The notes under the pieces are model-generated. The model saw only the letters and a program-made list of their open reading frames with translations, ran no database searches and was not told the DNA's origin. From contig OZ029914.1 of NCBI GenBank assembly GCA_964023275.1, positions 9,679,561-9,743,560 of the forward strand: a stretch of DNA of 64,000 nt, read 5' to 3'. Source of the stretch: Norana najaformis. Taxonomy: Eukaryota; Annelida; Clitellata; Crassiclitellata; Hormogastridae. Shown here one piece after another: positions 2,847-62,860 of the stretch. A program made the position numbers and the translations under genes. Numbering within the stretch: the stretch's first letter is position 1; each line of letters begins with the position of its first letter.

Positions 2847-3023
2847 ACGTAAGGACTCATTTTCGGTTATGTCTGTACATTCTGTTGTATGTGTCTCCAC
2901 GATTGCTGCCAGTGATACGTGCATGCCTGCAAGTGTCGCCTGAAATATTCCTAACAGCAAGCCTGCAGCAGCCGCTAGACATGATTGGGCATGTCAGCGA
3001 GCTGACGTCAGCATCAGTACCAG

Positions 3024-3030
3024 TATATAA
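3024..3030 (+). promoter_or_regulatory. TATA box of element 1
   Basis: TATATAA lies 73 bp upstream of the first ATG of the transposase-like ORF. TGACGTCAGCA (CRE-like) lies about 20 bp further upstream. Element 2 has a comparable layout with AAGTCAGCA upstream of its own TATA box, so this is probably the element's own promoter. Confidence 0.55.
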
Positions 3031-3102
3031 GGCGAGATTGCGTAGAACGAAGGTGAAGTTTTCTTATATAGCTGTAGCTAGTGTGTGAGATTTAATTTTG
3101 AA

Positions 3103-4778: not shown

Positions 4779-5000
4779 ACTCGTATAGAGTTAAAGCTAG
4801 AGACAAAATTTCGAAATGTATGCTTTCATCTGAGTAACATACATATATTCATATTACATTTTAAAACATATTTTAATTTCAAGTTATAAAAGAATAACAT
4901 TTTGTTTCTTGTTATGAATACTCTGAGTTTGCATAATTACACAGTTATAAGGAAATACTAGTTCTGTAAAGAGTTTGCATAATTATTAGCATGTATGCCG

Positions 5001-5056
5001 CATATCTTAAGATCCTGACGTGCTACACAAAATCTGACTTCAGATTTGGAATCAGC
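5001..5056 (-). repeat. Inner inverted-repeat arm, element 1 right
   Basis: The reverse complement starts GCTGATTCCAAATCTGAAGT and aligns without gaps to 2791-2846. It lies about 220 bp downstream of the transposase stop codon. Confidence 0.85.
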
Positions 5057-5171
5057 AGATTCGATTTAGTGTAGTACACATAACATATGCCTAGTAGCAG
5101 GCGCACTGGTGTGTAATGTCTCAACCGATGGCGCACCAAAACCAAGCCGCAATCAGGTCAATATCCAGTGT

Positions 5172-25751: not shown

Positions 25752-26681
25752 TTATCTAAACTCAAAAATCAAAATTCGTCCTCCATTGTCCTCCTCTCTG
25801 TCAGCCACAAACAGTCGGTTATTTGTCTGATCCAGAAGAATCCTCCGCGGAAATTGCAATCCGTGTTTTTCTACTGAGAGAATTTCTCTCTTAAATTCCA
25901 AATTAGAATCCAATAACAAAACTCGACTGTTTTCTCCATCGACGACCAACACGAATCCATTTCCATCGACGGCCAAATATACTGGTTTAGTCATTTGTCC
26001 GTTGGTCGATCCAGGTTTTCCACCGAATGACTTCTTAAGTTTTCCATCTGCGTCCACTGTACACACTCTGTGCAGATCATCACCATAAAAGCCAAGACTG
26101 ACCAGGAAATGACCACTGGTCAGTTTTATAGCATGCAATGGATGAAGAATATCTGGGTATGATCCAACTGGCCAACGAAAACCTATGTCTGATGATAGAT
26201 TCATTTCGCGGATCAATTGTCCATCCGACGAATATTCATTCAATTTATTTTTATCAAAAACAGTTAATATGACATTAGATTCATCTGTAACAGACAGACC
26301 ATATCCATAATCGTCTCCTGTTGACCATTTCTTTATTAATTTTCCATTTGGATCAACTCTCAAGATTTCACTCGACCGACCATAAGATGCCTTTAAATCG
26401 AAGATGTAGAGACATTTATTTCTGTTGCAGGATCCTATGTCATATGGATTAATTAATTCCTTCAAATTCCATCGACGACTAAAACTGAATTTCATAGAAT
26501 CGAAAACTTCAACTTCTGAACTCCCTAGAGTCAAAACAAACAATTCTTTCTCTAAGATCGGTTTTTCTTATGTGCGTTCTGTCTAAGATCGTCAATCCAC
26601 GGATCGATTTATTTTTCACTTCAGCAGCTTTTGTTCTGATCGTCTGAACTAAAACTGGGTCCAAGTTGAAACGAAGTTTAC
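25752..26681 (-). CDS. NHL-repeat terminal exon
   Basis: A large 3' exon ending at a TAA (25752-25754). The acceptor is CTATTTTCAG immediately before GTAAACTTCG at 26681, and it opens in phase 1. From 26543 down it encodes about 263 residues with repeated NHL/beta-propeller strands, for example RVDPNGKLIKKW, TVDADGKLKKSFG and PVYLAVDGNGFVLVVDGENS. Such propellers bind RNA or protein, often at the C-terminus of TRIM-type proteins. The first part (26681-26560, KLRFNLDPVLVQTIRTKAAE, then IRGLTILDRT) is out of frame with the rest because of a roughly 31-nt disturbance near 26551-26591. The phase matches the CARD and coiled-coil exons upstream, so it may be the last exon of that locus. The frame break could be mutation or assembly error. 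Confidence 0.75.
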
Positions 26682-27434: not shown

Positions 27435-27657
27435 TATGGCGTTATTCTTATAACGCCTGGATAATGACAATACTACTTTATTATACTACCTTGATCTACG
27501 CTACGTACAGGCTACTCAATGCTACTAGCTACTAAGTGTTCCGGTAGCGTTTATCGTGCGGGCGTCCGTATTAGAATGCCATGTCCAGGGCAGTGTTCGT
27601 GCCGCGTGGCGTTGTGGTAGGGGCGTGGCCTAACGGCTGGCCAATCATATCCTTACA
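27435..27657 (-). repeat. 3' LTR of the gypsy element
   Basis: On the minus strand starts TGTAAGGATATGATTGGCC and ends AACGCCATA. 223 bp; about 96% identical to the 5' LTR. Confidence 0.92.
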
Positions 27658-27668
27658 TCTCCCTTCAT
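27658..27668 (-). promoter_or_regulatory. Polypurine tract
   Basis: AATGAAGGGAGA directly precedes the 3' LTR on the minus strand, the place where plus-strand DNA synthesis is primed. Confidence 0.6.
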
Positions 27669-27759
27669 TAAAAACTTCGGACCGTCTCCCTTCGCTACTA
27701 AAAATAATCAAGCGTCAACAAACTAGACTAAAGGACATCTAAGTTTCTAGTCGTCTGCT

Positions 27760-28660
27760 TTGACAGTCTTAGTTCCGGTATTTTTTTTATGGTTGGGTCC
27801 TTCGTTAAGTGGCGGAGTAGGTGGGTTCGCCGCTAGTGCTGGTGACCGGGTGGAGGTTTCGTCGTCCTCGCTGTCCGTTCGAATCAGAATAGGCGGTTCG
27901 CCGCTGAAAGCGTACATGCTTGGATGTCCGCCGACGCGTAGTACCATCGACGCGCATTCTGACCGTTTGACCGACAGGCAGGGTGGTATGCTGCTTAGTG
28001 CGGCAGTCGTAGTAAAAGACCTGACTTTCCTTTGATGTGGTCAGCGCTGATTGAGCTGAGGCTGAATTGGGTGTTGCCAAGAGTGGTGCCTTTGTTGGCA
28101 ACTGAGTCCGCGTGCGTCGGCCGAAGATGAGCTGCGCGGGGCTCTGCCATGGACGGTGACGGTGTCGGTTGTGTGGGAGCCGGAGTTATCTTCCCTCTGC
28201 CCGTCTCTAGCTGTTTGAGTCTCGGAGGTTTGGCATTCGTTTTCGCCCCCTGAGCTTCGGCTGAGGAGGGGTTTGACAACAGGGGAACAGCTGTCGGTCG
28301 GTTGTTTCGGGTCTGTGGTTGAAATTTGGCACCAACGTCGCACTTTGTTGCTCCATCGCTTATCGCTGTCGTTCTGCACCCAGTATCTTGTCTGTAGCGC
28401 CCCGGGGGATAACACGGTGGTCTTTGAATGCAGGGTCTCCGCTGCTGAGTTTAACTGCGAACTCCGGTTACGGTCGTAAAACTACCGTTATTTCCGCTTT
28501 TGAATGAGGCGATCCCGTTGCTATTAGCTCCTGATATTCACTATCGGCTTCTGCAGCGGTTCGACTGGCATTGATCATTCGTTCCGGAATGAGCCTGTTT
28601 ATACACTCGAGCTGCTGATCCCTTATCGACGCATCTGGTAACTCGTTTTCAGCGATGTTT
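27760..28660 (-). pseudogene. Pol remnants (linker and integrase tail)
   Basis: About 28660-28420 on the minus strand includes SEYQELIATG and AFKDHRVIPRGA, like the segment between RNase H and integrase in gypsy pol. About 28040-27900 gives YYDCRTKQHTTLPVGQTVRM, typical of the integrase C-terminal region. The intervening 28400-28040 is Pro/Thr-rich in several frames. The RT and integrase catalytic cores are absent. Confidence 0.65.
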
Positions 28661-28704
28661 TGAGAGCTGTTTTGAGAGACGGCCTATATTCTCATCGACC
28701 GCTC

Positions 28705-29860
28705 TCACGAGATCCAGGTCCCGGCATGGCCTAGTATGGCCTGCCCATGCTTCTCTTCAACGTAAAAGTCTGCAGCATATTCTTGCGCGTTGCGTAAGTG
28801 TCTCAGCGTTAACGTTATCATACCTCTCGTCTGTAGCTCCTTCCGGTCGAACATTCGCAGTCTTGCCTCTGCCGGACGTATTTCATGGCTTCGACCGAGG
28901 GCACTGACGACTGATGCAGGAATTACGTTGTCTGTCGCGCCGCAGTCAAGTAGGAATCGGATCGTCTGTTCGTCGATTTGCATGTGCGTATGCCAGCGAT
29001 CAATGTTCGGGGTCCCGAGCGTCAGCAATTCCTCTTCACGGTCCAGTACGCATACTTCCGGTCTCGGGTTGGTCGCTTGTCGCCAAAGACAGCTCGCAGC
29101 AAAGTGGTTTTGCTTCCCGCATTGTCTGCAGGTTTGCCCATAAGCGGGGCACGATTCTCGTCTTGCGTCATGCGTCCGGCCACAGTACTTAGATTTTCGG
29201 CCAACCTGGGTATTATCTAAACCATAGGCTGGTTTGTTTTGCTGTCGCGAGCGGGGCCGTCTGTTGTTGCTGCGAGCCGGCTGCGTCCGTGAGAGCGCGT
29301 CGACGTGCTGGTCAAAGTCTGTCCTGGCTCTGAGCTGGCTTCCTGCTGCCTCACAGGATCTGCACACGTCGATTGCCCTTTCGAGCGTTAACTCGCGAAT
29401 TTGCAGGAGTTTTCGTCGCGTCGAGTCATCTTGAATGCCCATGAGAATGCGATCCCGAACCATGGAATCTTCGACTCCTCCAAATTGACACGTTTTAGCC
29501 ATCCTGCGGATGTCGCCCAAGAAAAGGTCAAAACGCTCACCTTTCTCTTGGTTGCGTTTGTAGAAAAGATAGCGTTCGTATGTTACGTTGACTGATCCTA
29601 TATAGAATTCTTGTAGCGCCGCCACTACTCTGTCGACGTCTCGTCGTTGGGCTTTTCTGGTAGCTGTAGACTTCTGAAGGCGTCGTATGCCTCTCCGCCG
29701 AGGCAGGTGAGGAAGATGGCTGCCCTCTTTTCTGAACTGGCGTCTGTCGGATCCGCTGCCAGCTCATAAGTTTGCCACTGTTCCTTGAATCTCTGCCATT
29801 GTCGGCAACGTTGCTTCCTGTTACGCGTAACGGATCGGGTAGTCTCAAGTTCGTATTCAT
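28705..29860 (-). pseudogene. Gypsy gag-protease, frameshifted
   Basis: The minus-strand start is MNTNLRLPDPLRVTGSNVAD at 29860. The frame then shifts near 29800 (continuing QRFKEQWQTYELAADPTDAS and AAIFLTCLGGEAYDAF) and again near 29640, after which 28705-29625 is open. That part holds the gag capsid tail (ERYLFYKRNQEKGERFDLFL), two Cys/His knuckles (YCGRTHDARRESC and CRQCGKQNHFAASC) and an aspartic protease active site in FLLDCGATDNVIP (Asp-Cys-Gly-Ala rather than the more usual Asp-Ser/Thr-Gly-Ala). The two frameshifts preclude a normal gag protein. Confidence 0.88.
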
Positions 29861-29947
29861 TTCCAGTTTTTTCAGAGTGCGACCTCTCGAAGCTTATCTA
29901 TTCGAGTTTGTCGACCTAGCTGTATGGAGCGAGTGTGTTCAGATCAA

Positions 29948-29961
29948 CACTTCTGACACCA
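29948..29961 (-). promoter_or_regulatory. Primer binding site
   Basis: TGGTGTCAGAAGTG directly follows the 5' LTR. TGG complements a tRNA 3' CCA. The tRNA species is not determined here. Confidence 0.6.
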
Positions 29962-30184
29962 TATGGCGTTAGTCTTATAATGCCTGGATAATGACAATAC
30001 TGCTTTATTATACTACCATGATCTACGCTACGTACAGGCTACTCAATGCTACTAGCTACTAAGTGTTCCGGTAGTGTTTATCGTCCGGGCGTCCGTTTTA
30101 GAATGCCATGTCCAGGGCAGTGTCCGTGCCGCGTGGCGTTGCGGTAGGGGCGTGGCCTAACGGCTGGCCAATCATATCCTTACA
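29962..30184 (-). repeat. 5' LTR of the gypsy element
   Basis: Same length and ends as the 3' LTR. Followed on the minus strand by the primer-binding-site-like TGGTGTCAG. Confidence 0.92.
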
Positions 30185-31105: not shown

Positions 31106-32165
31106 ACGGTATCACGTGGGCGGTCCTGGACTCATATGGTGTAGACAACAAGCTAACATGCTTACTGAAGGAAATTAACAGCAATGCTAAAGCCGCGGTC
31201 CGGGTGTGCGGTGTTACTGGAAACTGGTTTGCCACTAATAGAGGCACAAGACAAGGTGACCCAGTTTCACCAAATGTCTTCATCACACACCTCGAAAGAA
31301 TACTGGACAAGGTAAAAGAAACTGATGCTGGAGTACTGGTCAGTGGAATGAGAATCATGGACCTCTGCTTTGCTGATGACATTGATTTGATTGATGAAGA
31401 CAAACAGCGATTGGAGTACACACTGCAAATGTTGAGCGACGAAGGAAGAAGATATGGCCTTACCATGAACCTGGACAAAACAAAGACAATGGTATTTGGC
31501 AAAAAGAACCTAACAAGAAAAATAACTCTAGATGGATTCCAGCTGGAAAATATTGAGAAGTTTACATACCTTGGATGCAATACGACATACGACCTAGACA
31601 ACAGGAAGGAGGTCCTCATTAGAATTGCAAAAGCAGCAGCATCATTAAAAGCCATGGTTAAGGTATGGAAAAGCAAAGCCATAAAGCTGGAAACAAAACT
31701 GAGCGTCCTGGGCACATGTATCTTCAGCAGCATGTTATACGGGTGCGAAGCTTGGGTGATCACTAAAGATCTTAAAAGAAGAATATTGGCCTTTGAAAGA
31801 AAGTGTTTCAGGAAGATTCTGAAAATATCATGGATACAAAAAGTAAGCAATGAAGAACTGTACAGACGGATACATCATAAAGAAAACTTAATGCAAAAAC
31901 TAATTCGAAGGAAATTAGGACTATTTGGCCATATATGCAGAATGAACAATGATAGGAAAATCAAAACACTATTGTTTGGAATGATGGATGGGAGTAACAG
32001 AAGAGGACGACCGCACAGGGAATGGGCGGACGACATAACTGAATGGTGTGGAACAACGCTTCAAGAGCTGAGCCATGCCGCACTGAACAGACAACAGTGG
32101 AAGAACATGGTGAAAATGGCATCGGACACCTACGGGCGCTGAGCCCACGGTTCATGATGATGATA
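31105..32165 (+). pseudogene. RTE-like LINE, 5' truncated
   Basis: Open from about 31112 (VLDSYGVDNKLTCLLKEINS) through RT motifs TRQGDPVSPNVF and LCFADDIDLID (catalytic Asp pair near 31372), the thumb (NLDKTKTMVFG, FTYLGCNTTYD) and the typical C-terminus (LGLFGHICRMNNDR, RRGRPHREWADDI, SDTYGR) to the stop at 32140-32142. A short UTR and a (GAT)n tail follow, interrupted by element 2. The first ATG at 31204 is internal to the domain, so the 5' part (endonuclease and fingers) is missing. The surviving frame has no stop or shift, making this one of the youngest LINE copies in the window. Confidence 0.88.
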
Positions 32166-32293
32166 ACACTGGCCAACAGAAAAATTTTTTTTTCTTGTTG
32201 CCTTCGGTTTTAGACCTGTTCTTGTGGTAATTTTGGGCGCTGATTCAGAAAATGTCATTGGATTGAGTGCATCAGGTCTAGTTTCTGAGATAT
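32166..32293 (+). repeat. Left terminal inverted repeat, element 2
   Basis: Starts ACACTGGCCAACA, includes a T-run absent from the other arm, then TTGTTGCCT, TTAGACCTGTT and GCTGATTC, and ends GAGATAT. Confidence 0.85.
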
Positions 32294-32607
32294 CGTCGAT
32301 TTTGTAAAGAAAACCCAGCCCACTCTTTAAACGATGTCTTTGGCAAAACTAAAATGTCATAATAAGCTTTATTTATGGCTAATTATAATTCTTGCTGATT
32401 CATATAATGCCTACATCCTTATAATGTAAAATCAGCATATCTTGCCGCGTGCTGAGATATTGCTGATTCAACGAAATAACTATTCCGTAGCCTACAGCTT
32501 ACTCAGCACTAAATTCATGGCCTCATTTAGAATTTATTTGTGCTTATACAGCGTTTCATGGTTTCGAACTATGTAAATAGATTATGCTGAAGTCAGCATT
32601 TATAGCC

Positions 32608-32615
32608 TATATAAA
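32608..32615 (+). promoter_or_regulatory. TATA box of element 2
   Basis: TATATAAA 164 bp upstream of the transposase ATG, preceded by GAAGTCAGCA as in element 1. Confidence 0.55.
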
Positions 32616-32771
32616 CCGCCTCCTGAAAGCTAGAGCAGCCGCAGTCGTCTTAGGGCATATTAAGAGTTCGTCGCAAGAACAATCTGTGAATGTGAGCATT
32701 AAATAACTACATGTTCTTACTATTTTTTAGGTTAGTCATTTAATTCCTCAGATGCGAACATCCTTAAGGTT

Positions 32772-34479
32772 ATGGCTACTTCCAGACGGAGCTGCATTAA
32801 CCATCCAGACATATTCTGCTACATTTGTGGGGAATACACACTAAAAGCAACCAGGAAACCGATTTCTGAGTTTGTAAAAAGAGCATATGTAGGTTATTTT
32901 GGTGTCAAACTTGGAGATCAAGATAAGCAATGGGCTCCTCATACAGTATGCAAAACTTGTATTGAACAATTGCGCCACTGGACAATTGGAAAGAGAAGCT
33001 GCCTGAAATTTGGTGTACCGATGGTTTGGAGGGAACAGATAAACCACTTGGACGACTGTTACTTTTGTATGGTTAATATCATAGGCATCAATCGAAATAA
33101 TCGTCACAAGTTGTCTTACCCTGATATACCTTCAGCCAGGAGACCTGTTCCGCATTCGGATATTGTACCAGTTCCACCTTTTCGCGAACTACCTCAGCTC
33201 TCAGACGATGACACTTGCATGTCCAATATCGGACAAGATGACGAAAGTGAAGAAAGTGGGGGCAGTGACAGTGATTTCCAATCAACTTCACACAGTGAAC
33301 GTTTTGACGAAAAAGAGTTGAGTGATCTGATCAGGGACTTAAATCTTTCCAAAGAGTCCTCTGAATTGCTTGCGTCCAGAGTAAAGGAAAAGAATGCACT
33401 TCAGCCTGGAACGAAAATTACAATTTATAGAAACAGAGAAAAGGATTTGCTGCCATTCGCCGACCGAAGACAACAACCTAGTATTCTGTAATGACATCAG
33501 CAACTTATTGAAGAAAATTGGTCTGTCGGATTACAGCCCAGATGAGTGGCGTCTTTTTATCGACAGCTGTTCAAAACGTAGTCTGAAATGTGTGCTTTTA
33601 AATAACGGCAACAAATTTGGTTCTATTCCAATCGGTCACTCCACCAGGATGAAAGAAGAGTACAATGCCATCTCTTTAGTACTGGAAAAGATAAAATACA
33701 AAGAACATCAATGGGTAATTTGTGTAGACTTGAAGATGGTAAATTTCCTCCGTGGTCAACAAAGTGGCTACACAAAGTATCCCTGCTTTTTGTGTCTTTG
33801 GGACAGTAGAGCCAAGCATGAACATTGGACAAGAAAAGATTGGCCTTCGAGGAAAGACATGGTGGTTGGAGCTCAAAATGTAATCAAGGAATCTTTGGTG
33901 GCACGAGATAGGATCATACTGCCACCACTACATATAAAGCTAGGCCTGATGAAAGAATTTGTCAGGGCTTTGAATAAAGAAGGTTCATGCTTCGAATACA
34001 TAGTACACAAGTTACCAGGAATTACAATGGAAAAATTGAAGGCTGGAATCTTCGATGGTCCACAGATCAGGCAACTTATGAATGACCCACTTTTCATACC
34101 ATCAATGAATGAAATCGAATCTTGTGCCTGGTCTTCCTTTGTTCTTGTAACTAAAAATTTTCTTGGCAACAAGAAGGCAGACAATTATGCACAACTAGTA
34201 GAGGATATGCTTCTTCATTTCAACAAGCTTGGCTGCAACATGAGCATTAAAGTCCATTATCTCCACAGTCACTTAGATCGCTTTCCAGAGAATCTTGGTG
34301 ACTTCAGCGAAGAGCAAGGTGAAAGATTTCACGAAGACATCAAAACAATGGAAAATCGATATCAAGGAAGATGGGATGCACACATGATGGCAGACTATTG
34401 CTGGAATATTATGCGCGATTGTTCCGGCAGATGCCACACTCGGAAATCGTACAAAAGGAGCTTCTTCGGTGTCGAATGA
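32772..34479 (+). pseudogene. DDE-type transposase-like protein, element 2 (one frameshift)
   Basis: About 568 residues if read through a one-base shift near 33455-33468. The first frame (32772-33491) holds the N-terminal Cys/His cluster (CINHPDIFCYICG, WAPHTVCKTC, HLDDCYFC). The second (open through 33394-34479) resumes at EDNNLVFCNDISNL. Numbering from the ATG at 33394: D57 (RLFIDSC), D112 (ICVDLK), C131/C134 (CFLCLW), H288/H291/H293 (HYLHSHL), E307/E310 (EEQGER). D57-D112 and D112-C131 spacings (55 and 19) equal those in element 1. The two proteins look roughly half identical by eye and so belong to different subfamilies. Function is inferred from these motifs and the flanking inverted repeats. 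Confidence 0.8.
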
Positions 34480-34591
34480 CTTGAAATTTTTATAACAAAC
34501 TTGTTCTGTTTGGTATCATATAAGTACAGTTTCAGGTACTACCATTTTCTTTTAAGTATTTGTATTATTATGTTTATTTAGTGTATCACAT

Positions 34592-34597
34592 AATAAA
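34592..34597 (+). terminator. Poly(A) signal of element 2
   Basis: AATAAA 113 bp after the transposase stop and before the right inverted repeat. Confidence 0.5.
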
Positions 34598-34678
34598 TTG
34601 AGCACTACATAATTATAGCTATAGCCTTATGTTTTATGGGCGAGCAGAGGCAAGGACTGGTATATGGCATAATGTTCT

Positions 34679-34796
34679 ATATCTCGAAAACTAGACCTGC
34701 TGGGAGAAAACTGGTGCCTTTTCTGGAATCAGCAGGTCAAATATACCCAGAAACAGTTCTAACATTTGAGGCAACAAATTATGTGTTGGCCAGTGT
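34679..34796 (-). repeat. Right terminal inverted repeat, element 2
   Basis: The complement starts ACACTGGCCAACACATAATT, then TTGTTGCCT, TTAGAACTGTT, GCTGATTCC and CAGGTCTAGTTT, and ends GAGATAT. Confidence 0.85.
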
Positions 34797-35464
34797 GATG
34801 ATAGCACGGTTCGTACACGGGGATCTTAAATGACAAGATCAAATGTGAAATGTGATAGCATACAAAAACAGATGACGAAGAAATACAAAAAAATACGCAA
34901 CAGATAAGATTTTGAGTGTTGGAGCTCCGTTTTTAGGTGGCGATACTGCTCTTTTAAGTTGCGGATCTCATTGTTCCAGTGGTCGATCTCAAGTCAGAGG
35001 TGCCGGATCTCAGAATAAAGGGGAAGGGGGTGATTCGGCTAAATTTTACCAGTGAAATGCTCGCCAAACTCTAAGAATATAATTTCCACACTGCCAAACT
35101 GCATTCTTATCAACGTTTGCTCAAAGAAAAGCCTCTCATTCATAGGCTCAAGCGAAGTAAAAGGGATCTGCTTTGGTGCTCTTCAACACGCGAAAATGAA
35201 ACATTCAGCATTTTTTGTGACTAGACTAGTATTGACACCTACATTGTGCTGTCAACTGTATAGTTTGTAGCCTCGGAGTTATTTTTGACGACAAATTGTC
35301 CTCATGTCACATCTTTCAATTTTTTCGGATTTCCCTTAAGGTTCTCTGCCGACTCTGTGACGTTCAGCTGCAGTCAGATGTAAAAGCCGGAGCCCAACAA
35401 AATCTCGAATCATTTTGATTAAAACTTTTTGATTAAATTAAATTACGTAACTTAAATATTCTAC

Positions 35465-35575
35465 CTGAAAATTCTTTCTGCAGTTCTTGTATTTGATTCA
35501 CGAGACGATGCTTCTCTTCTGTCCAAATTTTCCTCTCTTGCTTCAGTTTCTCTTTGAGTTCTGATATCGTGCCAT
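35465..35575 (-). CDS. Coiled-coil exon, 111 bp (copy d)
   Basis: Acceptor TTATGTTGTAG before ATGGCACG and donor TTTTCAG/GTAGAATATT; phase 1 in and out. Encodes DGTISELKEKLKQERKIWTE, then EKHRLVNQIQELQKEFSG, a heptad-rich helix. One of four 111-bp copies (also 39292, 42501, 44727). Confidence 0.7.
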
Positions 35576-35974
35576 CTACAACATAAAATCGATCTTAAAC
35601 ATTTTGTTTATATGGAACAAATATAATATTCAGTGAATATCAGAATTCAGAATTTAACGCTTCCTAACGGTAAGAAGCCAACTATAAACAAAGCATTTTG
35701 TAATTTAAAGCAGAATAAAAAATAACATTTATTTCTTAGAAATAGCCACAAAGATCGTGAAAAAAGCAGGTACCACGTAAAACAGTATATTTATTTAAGG
35801 CTTAGCTAATGACATGCATAGGACTAATGGTACAAGAACTAATGGTACAAGAACTTCAGAACGAATTTTCAGGTAACATATTTAAGTTACGTGGGCCCTA
35901 TTTAATTTAATCAAAGCATAATAGTTTCATGGAAACAAATAATTGAAAAAGAGGGAAGCACTGTTGCTGCTGCT

Positions 35975-36055
35975 GATGATGATGGTAGTAGTAGTAGTTG
36001 TTGTTGTTGTTGATGTTGTAGTAGTAGTGATAGTAGTTTTGATAATAATGATAAA
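35975..36055 (+). repeat. (GTA/GTT)n microsatellite
   Basis: Trinucleotide repeat at the position matching the GAT/GGT repeat in the duplicate unit at 39697-39795. Confidence 0.8.
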
Positions 36056-36239
36056 CCATCATTAGCCTCGATCGGTGTGCGAACCAGTATCCACGAGCGC
36101 AGAGGAGCATTTGACTCGCGGTTTATACTATGTAGCAAACCAGACAAGTAGTGCTAAAAGGAATATTAGAGAAATTTTAAGAAATTTTATAAGAACCCCT
36201 TTTAATCAATGATACACACCACTTCAGGATTCTTACATA

Positions 36240-36730
36240 AAAACGTGAAACAAAAGGCGACGAAGACGACGACGAAAATTAAAAACAAACGCAGACTGAA
36301 GCAGAAAATGACGTAAACAAACATACACACGAACAGAGAAACTGAGATAGAAAATAACTAGACAGACATAAGCACAGCAGGTGTTCAAGAACTTCCAACT
36401 ATCATTTATAGCACGTCGTTACATTTACAATGCATTTCTACACTATGAAAATTATTTAGAAATAATACTGGTTTTAATAAGACATAGAAATTGTGCATAA
36501 TGATTTAGATAAATAAATTATATCACTTGTGCATTTACTTTATGGAAGGAAAACATTTGTAGAATCCTTAGTATGGAGCACTGTAAATATTCATTATAAT
36601 TATTGAAAGCGACATTTTGCAATAAGCTTAAATGTGAATCTAATGATCGGCGCCCCATAGTTGCATTTACAGCAGACATCCTCACGTGCTTCACCGTTTT
36701 TTCTAAATAAAGCAAGATGCTGTAATCAAT
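36240..36730. repeat. Locus duplication unit, intron segment copy I
   Basis: Matches 43600-44105 over almost 500 bp: ACGTCGTTACATTT, ATAATGATTTAGATAAATAAAT, CGGCGCCCCATAGTTGCATT and AAATAAAGCAAGATGCTGTA in order. Small ORFs in both copies are not conserved as proteins. Confidence 0.8.
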
Positions 36731-36732
36731 TA

Positions 36733-36890
36733 TTTTGACGATTATTTTGACGATTATTTTTGACGATTATTTTTGACGATTATCTTTGACGATTATTTTT
36801 GACGATTATTTTTGACGATTATTTTTGACGATTATTCATACGATTAATTTTACAATTATTTTGACGATTACTTTGACGATTATTTTTGCC
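36733..36890 (+). repeat. TTTTTGACGATTA tandem repeat, about 15-bp unit
   Basis: About ten imperfect copies of a unit reading GACGATTATTTTT, present only in this copy of the duplicated intron. Confidence 0.85.
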
Positions 36891-37787
36891 ATCTACAAGA
36901 TAAAATCGATCTTAAAAATTTTGTTTTCACCAAGCCAATATCCCATTTAGTGGATATCAGAATGCAAAAATTAACGCTCAATAACGATAGGAAATCCTCT
37001 GAAGACGAAGCACTTAGTAATTCATTGTAGATAAACATAAATTAACTGACATATACCGTGTAAATGGCTACAAATGGCGTTGCCTTTCGTGGCATTCAAG
37101 TTTGTTCTGCATGATCTGGACGAGATGTAACCGTACCAGATGATTTTTTATATTCTCCGGACATTTTTTAAAATCAGGAAGAATCAGGTCTATACCTGGG
37201 GGCCTAAAATAATAATATTAAAATGTGTGCGAATTGTGCATTTGCAAAACCTTTTGCATGATCGCCAGCCATTGCCATTTTCCTGTACATGAATCCTGAA
37301 TAAAAAAAAACTAAATTCACTAGCACCGTGATCACTGTAGGTTGTCAGACCTAGCGCCATATGGAGACGAAGTTTTCCGAAGTTGTCATTTAAAATAAGC
37401 CATTTTGCTTTACAGTAATGAACATTTACTTTTGATCCCAGTGATAAGTTGTCTCGATTTATAAACAAAACTCCTTACAGGAGCATGCTCGAAGAAAAAA
37501 GGTATTTCTAGAAACTTGATCTAAAATGTTATTTAGGCAACCTCTATCCGTTAGCAGATTCTAATGCTTCTCATGACTTGCCTCCATCAGCTTTCTTATC
37601 CTACTTAATTCCTTTAGAACTTTTCCTCCACTCTGTTTTCGTAGATCTTTGCTTTTCTTCTGCCACTGCTCAAGTTGCCTAGAAAGAGCATCAACACGTC
37701 TTCTTGACTCGTCTAGTTCGGTAGCTGTCGTCTTGAACGTTTCATCGAGATGGCGCTGGTTGTTTCTAAGCTATCATAATTCTTCGG
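36891..37787 (-). pseudogene. Duplicated intron and decayed terminal coiled-coil exon
   Basis: Matches 44838-45570: the TCTACAA.ATAAAA.C(A)GATCTTAAA start, the GATCCCAGTGAT block and then the terminal exon sequence at 37562-37787. The exon copy has indels and stops, for example around 37610-37650, and is cut at about 37787 by a LINE endonuclease fragment. The functional counterpart is 45344-45711. Confidence 0.75.
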
Positions 37788-38430
37788 TCGGCTCAGGACG
37801 TGTTGGACCTGACACTAGCTGCTTCGAACCAAAGACGTCAAGTATACTTGACGTCTTTGGTTCGAAGCAACTGTATACAGTGGTAAGATGGTCGCAGATG
37901 CTGGTGGACCTCTTGTTTCCAGGGCAGTAGAAATCTCCGCAGATGATGAGACGATCGCTGCCAGTCACAGAGGTAATTGCTGCAAGAAGGTTGCTGAATT
38001 TATGGTAGAAGTCGTTAAGGTTCGAATCTGGCCATTGGTAGATGTCGATGAAGAGGAATGGGAAGATGCTAGTGACAATGCGAACACCTTGGAAGTGGAA
38101 CTGCTTGTTGTCATCGTTTTCTGAAGCGGATGAGTTCTGACGGGGAGCGTCTCACGGTGGTTGATCACCAGACAGCTGCCGCTGCCAGTTTATCCAGAGG
38201 CAGAACAGTGGACATGTCTGGTCATGCACCCTGGCGTAGCCATGTCGTATTTGATGGCGTTTGGATCTTCACCAGAAATGCAAGTCTCACAGACACCCAA
38301 CACCTCTAACTAGTTTGACGATACCAGGTCGAAAATGATTGCAGCTTTGTCGACGGAGCTGAGAAGGACACAAAAAGTCATGGTGTTCTGCGACTTCACC
38401 TCAACCACAAGTCATGCTACTGTATGACAT
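37788..38430 (-). pseudogene. LINE endonuclease fragment containing a perfect palindrome
   Basis: Minus-strand translation in shifting frames gives the start of an APE-type endonuclease (AAIIFDLVSSN; LGVCETCISGEDPNAIKYDM at about 38300-38240). It continues NHRETLPVRTHPLQ (38160), IYQWPDSNLNDFYHKFSNLL and SDRLIICGDFYCPGNKR (about 38060-37900), then QLVSGPTRPEP (about 37825-37790). This order is that of a LINE endonuclease up to its PTR motif. A 48-bp palindrome at 37821-37868 interrupts it. No downstream RT follows. Confidence 0.8.
37821..37868. repeat. Perfect 48-bp palindrome
   Basis: Two 24-bp arms with no spacer. The left arm starts GCTTCGAACCAAAGACGTCA and the centre is AAGTATACTT. Every position pairs. 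Confidence 0.95.
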
Positions 38431-39291
38431 CCAGTTGCGCCAAATACACTCGACCTGCTTCAGTGGTTAAATTGCTCAAAATGAAATCGTGGATCTCCAA
38501 ATTTTTGCACTTCTGAAACCTAAGCCTATCTGGCGAATTTATTACCAACGCGTGCTATTCGCTATTCGGATAAAACAAATATTGAATGAAACATGAGCCA
38601 AAACGTTGATTATTGTAATCAACAACAGATTCACCTAAAACCATCAAATAACACGTTACATAAGACTAGACTAGATCAAATGTCAACTGTGATAGCAAAA
38701 CAGGAACAGATAACAAAAAAGTACAAAAAGTACCCAAAGATAAGATTTTGGGTATTTGATCTCCGCTTTTAGGTGACGGTAGGCCTACTTCTCTTTTAGG
38801 TGGCGGAACTCATTATTCCGGTGGTGGATCTCAAGTTAGAGGTGCCGGATCTGGGATCGGGAGCGGAGGGGAATCCGGCTGAATTTAATCAGTGAGCTGC
38901 TTGCCTAATTCTTTGGGTCTTATTTTCACAATGCCAAGCTGCATTCTTATCAACATTTTCTGAATTAATAGCCTCTCACTTAGGCTCAAGCGAAGTAAAA
39001 GGGTTTGCTTTGAAACTCTTCAACACATGAAGACTCTTCAGCACTTTTTGGCTTGACTTGATGGGCACCTGTATTGTGCCGTCTACTTTAGTTTGCAACC
39101 TCGGAATTATTTTTCACGAGAAGTTGTCATCATGGCACATCTCTCAATTTGTTCAGACTTTTCTTAATACTGTGTCGACTCTGTGATGTCCAGCTGCAGT
39201 CATATCACAAAACAGTTGCCAATCAACATTTCTAAAATAGTTTGATTAAAACAGTTTAATTGAATTAAATTACGTAACGTAAATTATCTAC

Positions 39292-39402
39292 CTGATAATT
39301 CTTTCTGTAGTGCTTGCATTTGATTCATGAGATGCTCCTTCTCTTCTGCCCATACTTTCGCTTCTTGCTCCAGTTTCTCTTTATGTTCTGAAACCATTCC
39401 AT
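39292..39402 (-). pseudogene. Coiled-coil exon, 111 bp (copy c), acceptor lost
   Basis: Open frame reading DGMVSEHKEKLEQEAKVWAE, then EKEHLMNQMQALQKELSG, with a good donor (TTATCAG/GTAGATAAT). The base pair just before the exon is TG, not AG (GTTTATG before ATGGAATG), because the TTGTAG present in sister copies is missing. It is therefore probably not spliced in. Confidence 0.65.
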
Positions 39403-39696
39403 CATAAACAATTTGGTTATGTGAAATATACCATTCAGCCGATATTAAAATGCAGAAATTAACGCTTGTTAACGACAATAAACCATCTAAAAATGAAGCA
39501 TTTTGTGGTTTGTAATAGATTAATATCCGATAACTAATTTATATCTTCGAAATAGCTACAAAGTTCGTGAGAAAAAAAACAGGTACTACGTGAAAACAGA
39601 ACTTTTATTTAAGGTTAAGCTAATGACATGCATAAGTTAAATCAGCTTAATGATCTCGTGGAAACAAATAATTGAAAAAGAAGAGACACTGTTGTT

Positions 39697-39701
39697 GACG
39701 A

Positions 39702-39735
<34 letters not shown>

Positions 39736-39795
39736 GGTGGTCGTCGTCGTAGTAGTAGTAGTAATGGTAGTAGTAGTCGTAATAGTAGCAGTAGT
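39697..39795 (+). repeat. (GAT/GGT/GTC/GTA)n microsatellite
   Basis: Compound trinucleotide repeat. The poly-Val/Met and poly-His ORFs across it are artefacts. Confidence 0.9.
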
Positions 39796-39944
39796 ATACT
39801 TTAAAAAAATAGGTCGTCATTTTCTTCTGTTCCTTTGTATTTATATTGTCCAAAATGATTGAGATAGATATTGCTCAAATGTTTTGTGTGTACTAAGATC
39901 AGCCTCTTCAATTTTTAGCTCAGTCATTGCATATGAGTGTTTAC

Positions 39945-40082
39945 CTCTTTTCAATTCTTTATCAAGATCGGATTTGCGTTCTTCACACTTCTTCTGCTCT
40001 GAAAGTAATTCCTGTTTTTCCTCTTTTTCCTTCTCCAATTCTAACTGTTTCTGCCATAAACGTTTCTTTAACATTTCGTTCT
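39945..40082 (-). CDS. Coiled-coil exon, 138 bp
   Basis: Acceptor CTTTTTCAG before AGAACGAAATG and donor AAAAGAG/GTAAACACT; phase 1 in and out. Encodes ENEMLKKRLWQKQLELEKEK, then EEKQELLSEQKKCEERKSDL, then DKELKRG, a strongly charged heptad-like helix. Confidence 0.75.
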
Positions 40083-40304
40083 CTGAAAAAGGAAAAAATT
40101 AATTTGTAGCTTAAAATTGCGACACTTCTGCCCTTTTTGCTGCTCATAATGACATCATAATGTTCTACGGATAAGGGTGACTTGACATCAGGTATGGTGA
40201 TGACCGATAATAGACTACTTAACATTCGAAATCTAAATTTCTACAACTGGGCACTCCACAGCGACTTAAGTAGTTTGAATGGATTAAATCTTTAAACCCG
40301 GGCG

Positions 40305-40910
40305 ACTCACTTGTCAAATTGGTTGATGTTGCTAGCAACTTAGACGTTGTTTATAATTCTACTATGTCTCTCACCAACTATGTAAATGGTATTTGTAAGT
40401 CGTCATACATGTATATTCATGACATGTGCAGAATTAGACATTATGTCACCATGCCTTCAGTGATACCTCTGGCAAAAATATCTGTTGCCTTGCTTACTGT
40501 AACTAGCTTTTAACTGGTATCACAAGATCAGATTTGCAGAAACTCCAGAGAGTTCAGAACTTCGTCTAGAGCTATAATTCGCAAGTCAAAATATGAGCGC
40601 ATAACCTCTGAACTATAATGTCTGCACTTGCTTCCTGTTCGGCAAGGGAGCTGTTTCAAATTGGGGCTCATAGTTTATAAAACATTGAACAGTGGCCAAC
40701 CACAATACATAAAATCAGTTCTCGCTCCCAAACGTATCGTTATTCAACTAGTCAACTGATTGCCTATCTCTAGTGATACCTGAGACTAGAACTGTTGCTT
40801 GTAAACGGGATTTTCGGTTGCTAGACAAAGATTTTGGGACACTAAGATGAGTGTGTCTGCTAGAGCAGAAAAGGCGCTATGAAAAGTGTGCAGTATGACG
40901 ATTGTGGGTT
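40305..40910 (+). pseudogene. LINE thumb and C-terminus remnant
   Basis: Reads SYMYIHDMCRIRHYVTMPSV around 40400-40460. It continues through a frameshifted SDLQKLQRVQNF (40530) and LLPVRQGSCFKLGLIVYKTL (40628-40687) to GFSVA and FWDT near 40840. The order matches the end of a non-LTR RT. It lies in the opposite orientation to the surrounding exons, within an intron. Confidence 0.7.
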
Positions 40911-41860
40911 AACTTTTTATGCTCCGCTTAGCGCTTGTAGGTTAGAGGCCTGTTTGAGAGTGAACGCAACACGTGAAAGAGATAGTGCGCAATTAATCCA
41001 AAAAGGAATCATGAAAGTGTTCTCCAGGCTACATGAGTAAGAGAACGAGAAAGTCGGTTAGTTCAAGGTAGAAGCCTCAACCGAGGGAATGCAGGTCACT
41101 GGAAACTATCAGGCCAATGAGCCGTATGCAACCGGATGAATGCTAGAGAAGAAAGAGGATCGAAATCAATGATGAAGAAATTATAATAATTTTTTTGTTA
41201 AAGTAAAGTTGGACAGCTGGTGTAAAATGCTGTGTTATCATACAGTCGATAAAGTATGTGTGTTTATGGTGTATTTTAACACGAGTGTAGTAAATATATT
41301 TGTGTAATGTTTGGGACATTTCCTTTGTTCGTTATAAGATAAGCTATAGTTATTCTTACGAACACTGCAGTAAGACTAAGGCATTGCCATAACGTATCCA
41401 TAGGTTCATTTCTCTATGGCAACAGCATTTAGTTGACCAGACTCTTTTATCAGAGAATTCATATGGCTAGATTCTTCACTACAGCTGCCAGTTTCAGCAA
41501 TGCTAGTTTAGATCCTGCATCACGGGCTATGTTAGTTCGAGACAGAAATCTCTAATATAATGTCAAGAAAGGAGTGGACACTAATTGCTTCTTCAATATA
41601 TATGCGCTGGAAGTAAGACTTTTATTAAAGCAAATTTAAACAGGCCACACACTGTGCGAAATAATGCTTTTGGAGATAGTAACATCAAATTTCTGATTTC
41701 TTATCTGTAGTTAAATTAGCTTTTTTTCGTATTTTAAAAGACAGCGAGTTTATTTTCCAATTCAGGACCACCCTTCATTATTGCTGGACCTTCAGGTCGG
41801 TAATCATAATTCTGTGTTATGGTAACTTTAGAATAATACTAAAAATAAATCATTTCTTGC

Positions 41861-42157
41861 CTTCAGATAAAGTCATTTTCGTGAGGATATGCTGATAGAT
41901 GTAAGTGTTTTCTTTCTGCAGTGCTTGTAGTACAACGGTAAAAGCTCTGTTGTGCATACAGGTGAATAAATCGTGAAGAAGAGCTCGACAGCGATCTTGC
42001 GGCGTTGAGGTTTCTGCTTTTATTTTTCTCCATTGTGCGATGGTGATTATTTCATCTTGCAGCAAAAAGTCGCTCAATCGATCTGGGTCAACATTGGCTA
42101 TAAATATTGCTTGTGTGTTGTAAATACGACTCTTTATTTCATCATTGGTCAAGGGCT
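41861..42157 (-). CDS. CARD exon C
   Basis: Acceptor ACGTTTTAG before AGCCCTTGACC; phase 1. Encodes about 99 residues: DEIKSRIYNTQAIFIANVDP, then DRLSDFLLQDEIITIAQWRK, then a helix with CRALLHDLF and AFTVVLQALQKENTYIYQHI. This is the six-helix CARD pattern (LLxxxIIT, RALLxxL, F..vLQAL). CARDs assemble with other CARDs in apoptosis and innate-immune complexes. The exon ends at SEG followed by GCAAGA, a possible GC-type donor; if unspliced, translation stops five codons later at 41850. The phase matches its neighbours. Confidence 0.8.
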
Positions 42158-42500
42158 CTAAAACGTAATTGTAAGCTTAAGATTATCGTATTTTAAATAT
42201 CAGACTATCGATTATTTAACTAAATCGGCATTGGTCATCAGTCGCCTGGATATCTTTTACTCGCCTCTTACCGTTATCACAAAGTCAAATATGCAGAAAC
42301 TTCAGAGTTCAGAACTCTTTGGCTTGAGCCATAATTGATTCGTCATAACATTATCACAATAACGGATTTCCTTAAGATTCTCTCCCCACTCTGTGACGTT
42401 CAGCTGCAGTCAGATCTAAAAGCCGGAGCCCAACAAAATCTCGAAAACATTACGATTAAAACTTTTTGATTAAATTAAATACGTGACATAAATTATCTAC

Positions 42501-42611
42501 CTGAAAATTCTTTCTGGAGTTCTTGCATTTGATTGACGAGCTGCTCCTTCTCTTCTGCCCATACTTTCCTCTCTTGCTCCAATTTCTCTTTGAGTTCTGA
42601 CACCGTGCTAT
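42501..42611 (-). CDS. Coiled-coil exon, 111 bp (copy b)
   Basis: Acceptor TTATGTTCTAG before ATAGCACG and donor TTTTCAG/GTAGATAAT; phase 1 in and out. Encodes DSTVSELKEKLEQERKVWAE, then EKEQLVNQMQELQKEFSG. Confidence 0.75.
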
Positions 42612-42970
42612 CTAGAACATAAAATCTATATTAATAGTTACTGGCCTAGTTTTTAGAGTTATTTAAATTTATCTGCTAATCGGCGCCAAATAGTCGTATA
42701 CACAAGAGACGTCATATTTCAATTTGAAAATCTATAGATAAACGCAATACCATAATCCTATGAAATTTGAATCTACTCTTTGGTTTAGTGTAACACTGAT
42801 TGACGGTAGTATTCTGTTCTAAGGTTAACTTTACTGTCTAAAACAAAGACAAAATTAAATTTTGCCTTGAAAATTACAAATTTGAAAAGTTAGTAACTAG
42901 TTCAATTCAACTTTGAAAGATTATAGTTTATCTCGGCTACTGCATGAGATTACAGATAAAACCTTTATAC

Positions 42971-43111
42971 CAAATAATCTTCGCTGGTCTTGAAATTGAT
43001 TGATAAGCTGATTTTTCGCTCTTCTTTCGTCTTCGAGTTGATTGGTAAATTCTTCCTTCTCCTTTTTCTCTTGCTCAAGGTTTTGCTCAATAACCTGCAT
43101 TTTTTCTCTAC
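42971..43111 (-). CDS. Coiled-coil exon, 141 bp
   Basis: Acceptor GCTGGTACAG before GTAGAGAAAA and donor TTATTTG/GTATAAAGG; phase 1 in and out. Encodes GREKMQVIEQNLEQEKKEKE, then EFTNQLEDERRAKNQLINQF, then QDQRRLFG. Confidence 0.75.
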
Positions 43112-43599
43112 CTGTACCAGCACAATGCAGAACATTTTCATTTACACAAATTATTTGACACTGAAAGATAGTTTGTGGATACGAAAGGTGCTCTATTCGT
43201 TTGAAAACTCTATATTTGAAGTCGAAAGTGAAATAGTTTTTGGGAAGTTGTACAGATATTTATGATTCTGTTCGTTTCACTTATTTTGCAAAGCATAGAA
43301 GTATGTATGTCTGTGCTGAATTTGGATCTGTTATCAATATTAACGTTATTCAAAAAATTAACTATTATTTCGACAAAATTAATGTGTATTACATTTCTCA
43401 AAATTCCTTACTTACTATATAAAATTTGGAATATTTAGAAAGAAAAACTTTCTAAACATGACTAAGGAATCTAATGTAAATGAGACGCCGATAATTGTTA
43501 CGAGAATGACGAGTGAAAAAGGCGCCGAAAACAAAAACGACATGTTTAGTTTATCATATATCCTTCGAAAACTACAAATATTTTCCACAACCAGAAAAG

Positions 43600-44105
43600 T
43601 TCATATGTGTACGGTTTTTGAAACAAAAAAGACAAGGACGACGTTGAAAATTAGAATCAAACTCAGATTGAGGCAAGAAATGACGTAGACAAACACAGAC
43701 ACGAACAGAGAAACCGAAATAGACAATAACAAGAGTGACATAAGCAGACGCAAGGCGGGTGTTCAAGGACTTCTGGCTTCAATATAGGACGTCGTTACAT
43801 TTCAAAATGCATTTCAACACTATGGAAATTATTTACAAATAATACTAATTTTAATAAGACATAGAAATTGTTTATAATGATTTAGATAAATAAATTTTAC
43901 CACTTATGCGATGACTTTTATGGAAGAAAAATGTTTGTAGAATATATATAGCAAGGAGCACTGTAAATATTCATTATTGAATGCCACATCTTGCAGGGAG
44001 CTTAAATGTGAATCTAATGACCGGCGCCCCATAGTTGCATTTACAGCAGACGTCATCGTCACGTACTTGACAGTTCTAAATAAAGCAAGATGCTGTAATC
44101 TTTCG
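43600..44105. repeat. Locus duplication unit, intron segment copy II
   Basis: Counterpart of 36240-36730. ORFs at 43458-43688 and 43904-44171 fall in this duplicated intron and are not supported as genes. Confidence 0.8.
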
Positions 44106-44428
44106 AAACTGCGTTTCCAGCTGGAACTACTACTGAAAGCAAACACGTCTACCAAGGGAATAATGGTATAATAATTTCAGAGATTTCTACTTTCAGAGGG
44201 TTGCTCTGTTCTTTTGTAGTTTTTCATCTGGAATGCCACCGACTGAATACATGCATAGGGATTCTAAGCCAAGGGCATTTCTAAATTGTGTGAAATAAGA
44301 TGTAACCAGGGTAAAATCTTAGCCTGCACAAACTCATATGATTTTATTGTATTTACTTGACCAAAAGTAACGGTTTGGAAGCAAATTGTTAAAAAACATT
44401 AACCATAAGTAGTCTATGAGTTTATAAC

Positions 44429-44536
44429 CTGCATCAATTATTCTATTGTATTCTTGCGCCTGTTCCTTTAGACGATCATTCTCTGTTCTCTGTAACTTCA
44501 ATTCCTGTTCGAGATTGAAACATTTCTTACTGCTAC
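44429..44536 (-). CDS. Coiled-coil exon, 108 bp
   Basis: Acceptor TGTTTTCAG before GTAGCAGTAAG and donor GATGCAG/GTTATAAAC; phase 1 in and out. Encodes GSSKKCFNLEQELKLQRTEN, then DRLKEQAQEYNRIIDAG. Confidence 0.7.
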
Positions 44537-44726
44537 CTGAAAACAGCAAAATCCATTAGGATTTCATTTTAGTTTACTGATTATACTTTCCGTTGAAAAA
44601 AGATAATCTAGAATTCTAGAATTCGTCATAGCAGGTAACGATAGTTAAAACAATTTAAATCAATGTTTTGCGTTTTACCATGTAATTAAAACATTTAAAT
44701 TAAATTACGTAATGTAAATTTTTTAC

Positions 44727-44837
44727 CTGATAATTCGTTCTGTAGTTCTTGTATTTTATTCCTGACACGCTCCTTCTCTTCGGCCCATACTTTCCTCTCT
44801 TGTTCCAGTATCTTTTCGAGTTCTGAAACGGTGCCAT
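44727..44837 (-). CDS. Coiled-coil exon, 111 bp (copy a)
   Basis: Acceptor TTATGTTGTAG before ATGGCACC and donor TTATCAG/GTAAAAAAT; phase 1 in and out. Encodes DGTVSELEKILEQERKVWAE, then EKERVRNKIQELQNELSG. Confidence 0.75.
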
Positions 44838-45343
44838 CTACAACATAAAACAGATCTTAAACATTTTGTTTTCATGAAGCAAATATCCCATTAAGTAGAT
44901 ATCAGAATGCAGAAATTAACGCTCATTAACGATTAGAAATCCTCTAAAGACGAAGCACTTCATTCTTAAATCTGGATGAATCATGTCTACCTGGGGACCA
45001 AAACTAATAATATTAAAATGTATGTGAATTGGGCATTTTCTAAAAACTTTTGCACGATCGCCAGCCACTGCCTTTTTCTGTACATGAATCTTCAATAACA
45101 AAACCTAAATTTACTAGCTCCGTTACCACTGTAGGTTGTCAGATTGAGACGAAGAGTTCCAAAGTTGTCATTTTAAAGAAGCCATTTTGCTTTACAATAA
45201 TCAACATTTACTTTAGATCCCAGTGATCAGTTGTCTTTAGTTATAAATAAAACTCCTTACAGGAGCATGCTCGAAGAAAAAAAGGTATTCATAGAAACTT
45301 TATCTAAAATGTTATTTAGGTAACCTCTATCCGTTAGCAGAGT

Positions 45344-45711
45344 CTAATGCTTCTCATGACTTGCTTCCATCAACTTTCTTATCCAACTTAATTTCTTCAG
45401 AACTTTACCTCTCTCTTTTCGTAGATCGTTGCTTTCTTTCTGCCACTGCTCAAGCTGCATAGCTAGAGCATCAACACGTCTTCTTGACTCGTCCAGTTCG
45501 GTAGTTGTCGTCTTGAGCGTTTCATCGAGATGGCGTTTGTTGATTCTATGCCATCCTAATTCCTCGTTTAACATGCTGATCTGCGCCTTAAGTTGCCCTT
45601 CTAATTGAGATGCGAAGTTCTCCGTAGATTCCTTTACGCTTCCCAAGATCTCGCGCAAATCTTCAAATTCGATCAGCTTTCTGTTCAAACCTTTCCTTTG
45701 CTGAATAAAAC
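45344..45711 (-). CDS. Terminal coiled-coil exon of the CARD-CARD gene
   Basis: Acceptor GTTTTTAAG before GTTTTATTCAG at 45711; phase 1, joining the exon at 46403 as LVQ-GFIQQRKGLNRKL. Encodes about 121 residues, mostly coiled coil (REILGSVKESTENFASQLEG, LDETLKTTTTELDESRRRVD, LAMQLEQWQKESNDLRKERG), ending KLMEASHEKH and a TAG stop at 45344-45346. A decayed copy lies at 37562-37787. Coiled coils next to CARDs typically mediate oligomerisation. Downstream coiled-coil exons would need this exon to be skipped. Confidence 0.8.
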
Positions 45712-61876: not shown

Positions 61877-62379
61877 AACAAAAGGAATCCTCCTCTCAAC
61901 ACCAAGGTGACCGCTAAACGCTACTAACAGTCTGTCAAACCTCTACATCTGTACAAACTTGAGCGGCGTCGGAAAATTTTGACCTGACTGAAACGTTCTC
62001 GGTATCAGCATACCCGGCTGAACGTGAAAGACCGGACGACGACTGGAAGCAACCACCAGCTCCGGAAACGTACCCCTCGAACTGAAGTCGTAATTAACTG
62101 CCCGACACGGATGAATGCTTGACTCACCAACTGAACAGAACGGCCGACACGGTTGACTGCGTGGCTTCCACCCACCAAACGAACGGCATACGACCGAAGA
62201 ACTGCCCGGCACCATCCCTGAAACCGACTCCGACCCGGCGGAAGGATGCCTCGCACGACCATCCGGCTCCTGCGAGTACACGTCTGGTTGAACAACGCCC
62301 CTCTGTTGCTCCTTCCTCGGCTGACCGTCGTGACGACCCTCTGTCGAACGAATCCGCTCCCGACCACCGTCATACGGAT

Positions 62380-62860
62380 GAATCTCCCGCGGACGAATCA
62401 CACCCAGCTGAATCTCACACGGATGAATCTCTCTCGGACGAATTTGCTTCGGACGAGCCTCACTCGGACGAATCTTTCTCGGACGAATTTGCTTCGGACG
62501 AATTTTCTTCGGACGAATTTTCTTCGGACGAGCCCCCATCTGTTGCATGCTGGGAAGCGATTAGGCTCCCGGACGAATCTCTCTCGGACGAATTTTCTTC
62601 GGAAGAGCGTCACTCGGACGAATCTTTCTCGGACGAATTTTCTTCGGACGAGTTTCTCGGACGAATTTCCTTCGGACAAGTTTCTCTCGGACGAATTTCC
62701 TTCGGACAAGTTTCTCTCGGACGAATTTCCTTCGGACGAGTTTCTCTCGGACGAATTTCCTTCGGACGAGCCCCCATCTGTTGCATGCTGGAAAGCGATC
62801 CCGGACGGATTTGCTTCGGACGAGCCCCCATCTGTTGCATGCTGGAAAGCGATTAGGCTC
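62380..62860 (+). repeat. Minisatellite based on TCGGACGAATTT
   Basis: Dozens of TCGGACGAAT units in about 15-bp steps, interrupted three times by GAGCCCCCATCTGTTGCATG-type text (about 62530, 62769, 62824). The overlapping long ORFs on both strands (Ser/Asp/Glu-rich on plus, Arg/Lys/Pro-rich on minus) follow from the repeat being free of stops and are not supported as genes. Confidence 0.85.

Follow-up and report, generated by a model that had tools for sequence, protein, structure and literature searches.

A decayed DNA transposon, probably of the Chapaev3 group, in the annelid Norana najaformis

Two related elements in the window

The stretch analysed here, 64,000 nucleotides of the annelid Norana najaformis (contig OZ029914.1, forward-strand positions 9,679,561 to 9,743,560; hereafter the window), contains at 32166-34796 an element that a preliminary description had called a cut-and-paste transposon with an unclassified transposase-like gene, and a candidate for an undescribed system. 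We conclude, with a probability of about 0.8, that this element, copy 1, is a decayed copy of a cut-and-paste DNA transposon of the Chapaev3 group, within the CMC supergroup. Its cut-and-paste nature is supported by its termini and inverted repeats, by the predicted RAG1/Transib-type fold of its transposase and by a second copy bracketed in the same way, copy 2. The view that it is unclassified or undescribed is not supported: its features fit Chapaev3 as set out in PMC4079192, and it belongs with a known animal transposon group. The features of both copies, in window coordinates, are as follows.

32166 to 34796, + strand: copy 1, probable Chapaev3-type DNA transposon (32167-34795 if CAC/GTG are the true ends)
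32166 to 32304, + strand: left terminal inverted repeat of copy 1 (aligned span 1-139; outer 13 bp exact, remainder diverged)
34668 to 34796, - strand: right terminal inverted repeat of copy 1 (aligned span 1-129)
32159 to 32165: GATGATA left of copy 1, a 7-bp duplication or, under the Chapaev3 rule, a GAT-repeat tail with A-TAA before CAC
34797 to 34803: GATGATA right of copy 1, read under the Chapaev3 rule as GTG followed by TGA-T, with one mismatch to TAA
32608 to 32615, + strand: TATA box-like TATATAAA, upstream of the transposase gene, read from the sequence
32772 to 33491, + strand: transposase gene, part one, with an N-terminal Cys/His-rich region (CxxC..CxxC..HxxxCxxC) and the start of the core
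33394 to 34479, + strand: transposase gene, part two, in a different frame from part one, with a predicted RAG1-like DDE core bearing the motifs C(2)C, LH and H(4)H
34592 to 34597, + strand: AATAAA polyadenylation signal-like site, read from the sequence
31204 to 32142, + strand: reverse transcriptase open reading frame (ORF) of the non-LTR (long terminal repeat) retrotransposon hosting copy 1 (RVT_1, E 6.5e-13)
2741 to 5113, + strand: copy 2, a related but more diverged element with CAC/GTG ends, flanked by A-TAA and TAA-T
2766 to 2846, + strand: left arm of the copy 2 inverted repeat, 81 nt long, with 75% complementarity to its right counterpart
5001 to 5081, - strand: right inverted-repeat arm of copy 2, pairing with 2766-2846
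3103 to 4778, + strand: copy 2 transposase gene, sharing 48% identity with the relative P0001; its frame is broken between 3168 and 3177

Termini and flanks of copy 1

Copy 1 has symmetric ends, ACACTGG...CCAGTGT, with an exact GATGATA immediately outside each. Exact matches to the terminal sequence ACACTGGCCAACA are confined, in the whole window, to 32166-32178 (+) and 34784-34796 (-); two further sites match it with 2 mismatches, where 1.26 would be expected by chance for at most 2. Counted from the ends, 94 of 141 alignment columns of the inverted repeats are identical, and the alignment score of 88 compares with 35 for the best of 1000 shuffles. The exact 13-bp termini, the roughly 120 bp of alignable inverted repeat and the GATGATA on both flanks, all given in the preliminary description, are thus borne out, though the left flank proves to be a repeat; its TATA box and poly(A) signal are present as sequence and count as putative signals.

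That left flank, a GATGATGATA repeat, belongs to the 3' end of a non-LTR retrotransposon, whose tail beside copy 1 is a GAT/ATG repeat. For this reason the GATGATA match argues less strongly for a 7-bp duplication than might appear, and the flanks are compatible with such a duplication and also with a shorter one within the repeat. Under the TWA rule of Chapaev3, copy 1 reads A-TAA on the left and TGA-T on the right, with one mismatch; the competing reading is the exact 7 bp within the GAT repeat. The motif ATWACACTG occurs at four sites in the window, each on the + strand, and the left ends of copies 1 and 2 account for two; this search of the window established no small non-autonomous copy. 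Just downstream of copy 1 begins a series of dispersed related repeats (34832-45566), which are about 71-89% identical in pairwise comparison.

Gene structure and decay

The gene of copy 1 is split over two ORFs, 32772-33491 and 33394-34479, that overlap but differ in frame and match residues 1-229 and 231-567 of an intact relative of 567 codons, P0001, with 93.9% and 96.5% identity, respectively. Comparison with P0001 places a single frameshift between 33458 and 33463, in keeping with the ORF of about 568 codons and one frameshift originally described. Relative to P0001, copy 1 also carries one extra codon straight after the first catalytic Asp-Ser, and it deviates at columns that are invariant in an 88-member alignment of relatives, for example Gln394 and Gln520. 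Because of the frameshift, the extra codon and the changed invariant residues, copy 1 is very probably dead. Copy 2 likewise has one extra residue just past the first catalytic Asp.

A diverged second copy

A tblastn search of the window with P0001 recovered a second gene in two pieces, 3106-3168 and 3177-4757, the main piece being 48% identical. The preliminary description had held that gene copies lacking the flanking repeats would tell against a transposon; in the one other copy available, the gene is bracketed by inverted repeats, which scored 82 compared with a shuffle maximum of 41. A scan of the boundaries returned two exact duplications of at least 3 bp, only one of which, at 2741-5113, has CAC...GTG ends. 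Here TAA is duplicated on either side, preceded by A on the left and followed by T on the right, and the element measures 2,373 bp if these ends are right. Such a configuration arose in 1 of 200,000 random placements in the same window, with ranges chosen after looking at copy 2, and the right-hand motif GTGTAAT by itself in 225 of 200,000.

The left ends of both copies read ATAA followed by CACTGG, and a subterminal sequence around GCTGATTC...GTCTAG is common to the two elements. The right end of copy 1 aligned to the left end of copy 2 with a score of 44, equalled by none of 1000 shuffles; the remaining three cross comparisons were weak, with 5 to 9 shuffles in 1000 scoring as well.

An abundant transposase family with conserved motifs

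With the copy 1 transposase as query, 3130 of 3588 candidates were relatives at E ≤ 1e-3; with copy 2, for which scoring was confined to candidates sharing most words, 2274 of 7994 scored candidates were relatives. We analysed the best 120 of each set, 240 proteins, over all of which motif counts were taken in P0001 numbering. Alignment A1 held 88 of the 120 copy 1 relatives (length 520-600), and the hand-picked alignment A3 held 78 of the 120 copy 2 relatives, 10 of the 120 copy 1 relatives and the copy 2 frame from the window. Among the 240, 201 were 500-610 amino acids long and near full length. Most of those listed are named at source only as hypothetical, uncharacterized or unnamed; named hosts among the matches listed include beetles, moths, a psyllid, the leech Helobdella robusta and the lizard Rhineura floridana, whose protein is 68% identical across 89% of the query.

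The catalytic aspartates are almost invariant (D264 in 239 of 240, D318 in 240), as are C337 and C340 (239 and 240), L385 and H386 (238 and 240) and H494 and H499 (238 and 240). Of two nearby glutamates, E513 occurs in 235 and E516 in 237 of the 238 relatives with a letter at that column; E513 is probably the catalytic residue, with E516 as the alternative. The N-terminal CxxC..CxxC..HxxxCxxC pattern is also conserved among relatives.

None of the 240 relatives carries a precomputed Pfam domain, and in direct scans no transposase with scores shown had a Pfam or NCBIfam match over the curated cut-off. The first ORF of copy 1 gave sub-threshold Pfam matches to zf-AD (E 0.0055; 17.4 bits, cut-off 28) and DZR_2 (0.011), with FYVE and zf-RING_UBOX weaker, and the second ORF matched ZapG-like at E 0.11. 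Across the 88 members of A1, 33 Pfam families appeared at E ≤ 1, with zf-AD in 55 of 88 (best 1.7e-4); among the 25 of these families listed, the others occurred in 1-10 members each, such as FYVE (best 0.0015), RT_RNaseH (0.055, 1 member) and DDE_Tnp_1_4 (0.14, 1 member). P0001 itself had three Pfam matches at E ≤ 1, its zf-AD match scoring 16.5 bits against the cut-off of 28, and the copy 2 ORF had no Pfam match at E ≤ 0.01. The two proteins scanned against NCBIfam, P0001 and P0121, had no match. In viral or prokaryote contigs, successive scans gave 1, 28, 32 and 6 stretches matching a pattern, and no relative was confirmed among them.

A predicted RAG1/Transib-like core

The fold comparison envisaged in the preliminary description gave RAG1, the enzyme responsible for cutting antibody genes, and HzTransib as the top matches to the predicted fold, with best rows scoring 17.4-20.2. 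The match spans about 350-375 residues and excludes the N-terminus. Three HzTransib entries in other states scored 11-13, near the P element. Like HzTransib (6pqx) and RAG1 (5zdz), the family combines this predicted fold with C(2)C and H(4)H in a like arrangement and with ends beginning in CAC; sequence identity to them in the structural alignments is 9-14%, and the duplication in copy 2 is 3 bp rather than 5 bp. It further differs from Transib in its additional N-terminal Cys/His-rich region. A viral fold library returned nothing at E ≤ 0.001.

Probable assignment to Chapaev3

According to PMC4079192, Chapaev elements are characterized by the set C(2)C, LH and H(4)H, by CAC/GTG termini and by duplications generally of 3-4 bp; within Chapaev3 the duplication is TWA, with A on its 5' side and T on its 3' side, and the element Garfield_BM measures 2,289 bp and encodes 556 amino acids. 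The elements described here encode a DDE transposase with all three motifs. The inverted repeats of copy 1 end in CACTGG...CCAGTG and copy 2 retains CAC/GTG, while sizes of 2.63 kb for copy 1, 567 amino acids for P0001 and 2,373 bp for copy 2, if its ends are right, are close to those of Garfield_BM. The duplication is 3 bp in copy 2, a TWA between A and T, and ambiguous in copy 1, where it is either an exact 7 bp or a TWA with a single mismatch. Copy 2 fits the Chapaev3 description in PMC4079192, and copy 1 fits all of it except for the ambiguous duplication. It is the predicted fold, the motifs, the termini, the sizes of element and protein and the copy 2 TWA duplication that lead us to this assignment.

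Relative to the Chapaev3 elements Garfield, Merrow and Conan (PMC4079192), the likeness thus extends over element length (about 2.3-2.6 kb), transposase length (556-567 amino acids), termini and motifs, and hosts lie across distant animal groups in both cases; the host range of the relatives is compatible with the horizontal spread of Chapaev3 reported there. Garfield and Merrow have two exons, compared with a single ORF here, and most other Chapaev3 elements apparently have one. Chapaev, Chapaev3 and the RAG1 line are described as having a complex N-terminal zinc finger, Chapa (PMC4411706), and the N-terminal pattern here, judged from its sequence, may be compatible with that domain. For the CMCT clade, PMC12730594 gives 2C and 3H, duplications of 2-5 bp and 5'-CA..TG-3' ends; our motif counts agree in number, and both copies have such ends. 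CNEST, a CMC superfamily of Cryptococcus (PMC12810828), has a CMC-type DDE transposase too, and its clade includes animal transposases called unclassified; compared by description, it differs in its 7.2-kb length, CACGG ends and TA duplication.

Several observations weigh against this assignment. Membership in Chapaev3 is drawn from features, rather than from a tree or a direct sequence alignment. The flanks of copy 1 suit an exact 7-bp duplication better than TWA, with TAA on the left and TGA on the right. The right end of copy 2, read inward, is CACACC, which matches the left-end CACTGG at three of six positions, and the alignment of its inverted repeat starts only at about position 27-33; since the outer 25-30 bp pair poorly, the right boundary is set by the fit of CAC/GTG and TAA. 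Finally, sequence-only searches never matched the RAG1 or Transib chains in the PDB, returning either nothing or two irrelevant proteins, an RNA polymerase I subunit and HypK (E 0.11 and 2.1), chiefly over an acidic part. The relation to RAG1 and Transib is therefore drawn entirely from the predicted fold and the motifs.

Alternative assignments

An improbable alternative, though the best of those considered, is a separate lineage of the CMC/RAG1 clade with ACACTGG ends, inserted at GATGATA with an unusual duplication of 7 bp (or 8 bp). The exact GATGATA directly beyond symmetric ends speaks for it, and 7 bp would be new relative to the 2-5 bp reported for the CMCT clade in PMC12730594. Against it, GATGATA may recur in a GAT repeat without any duplication, copy 2 has a 3-bp TAA with CAC/GTG ends and no longer exact duplication in the boundary range scanned, and ATAA before CACTGG at both left ends matches the Chapaev3 rule. 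The related proposition that a RAG1-fold lineage duplicates 7-8 bp of target, beyond the range reported for the clade, is a little less probable again; if true, it would mean a different spacing of the two strand-transfer sites.

We consider it similarly unlikely that the element is a Transib or RAG-like (ProtoRAG) element proper, as the best fold matches and the CAC at the start of its ends might suggest. Transibs typically duplicate 5 bp (PMC4411706), and across the ranges scanned neither copy joins CAC/GTG ends to an exact 5-bp duplication; the sequence-level searches of the PDB also matched no RAG1 or Transib chain. Nor does a second sense ORF of at least 80 amino acids lie beside the transposase parts, so a RAG2-like gene is not expected, although similarity to RAG2 was not searched.

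P elements and hAT transposons make 8-bp duplications, and the P element has an N-terminal THAP domain. A relative of either would share an RNase H core with a large insert, and an 8-bp TGATGATA reading is possible if the two ends were cut asymmetrically. This origin is very unlikely given fold scores (P element 11.4 and 11.9; Hermes 9.2 and 9.5) well under the best RAG1/Transib values, motifs that are those of the CMC clade and the absence of THAP, BED or hAT from the three Pfam matches of P0001. Least probable of all is a domesticated host gene lying by chance between repeats, which the near full length of most relatives might suggest; the window holds two copies, both with inverted repeats and both frame-broken, and scored relatives number in the thousands (3130 and 2274), with several insects, a leech and a lizard among the named sources of those listed.

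Proposed mechanism and significance

For a Chapaev3 element, the observed ends, inverted repeats, gene, motifs and second copy, taken with the predicted fold, suggest the following mode of movement. The single gene would have encoded a transposase of about 567 amino acids, with an N-terminal Cys/His-rich region and a RAG1/Transib-like RNase H core. By comparison with RAG1 and Transib, the N-terminal region is likely to bind zinc as well as the terminal inverted repeats. The catalytic core would comprise D264, D318 and probably E513, with C337/C340 and H494/H499 forming a putative zinc-binding insert, as their motif suggests. If the enzyme works like RAG1 and HzTransib, a dimer of it may pair both CAC-beginning ends, nick beside each CAC and then cut the second strand, probably via hairpins on the flanking DNA. 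The excised element would then be inserted where the target has been cut in a staggered way, and a short target sequence would be duplicated, in copy 2 TAA between A and T.

The value of the assignment lies chiefly in annotation: an abundant animal transposase family has no precomputed Pfam domain in the relatives analysed, though its predicted core is RAG1/Transib-like. The intact relatives could be used to ask whether Chapaev3 cuts DNA as RAG1 does.

Other features of the window

A sigma-70 promoter and terminator scan, a model unsuited to a eukaryote, performed at about shuffle level, and ARAGORN found 0 tRNA genes in the window. A short LTR element lies at 27435-30184 (-), with 223-bp direct repeats (27435-27657 and 29962-30184) that are 96% identical, GTATG on both sides, and a gag/aspartyl-protease ORF (28705-29625) as its only ORF of at least 180 amino acids. 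An ORF at 25752-26543 (-) contains NHL repeats (Pfam NHL, E 3.5e-6) and is possibly a host gene fragment. At 62375-62770, a tandem array of 15/30/45-bp units (CGGACGAAT...) is overlapped by ORFs 201-245 amino acids long, two on the + strand and one on the - strand.
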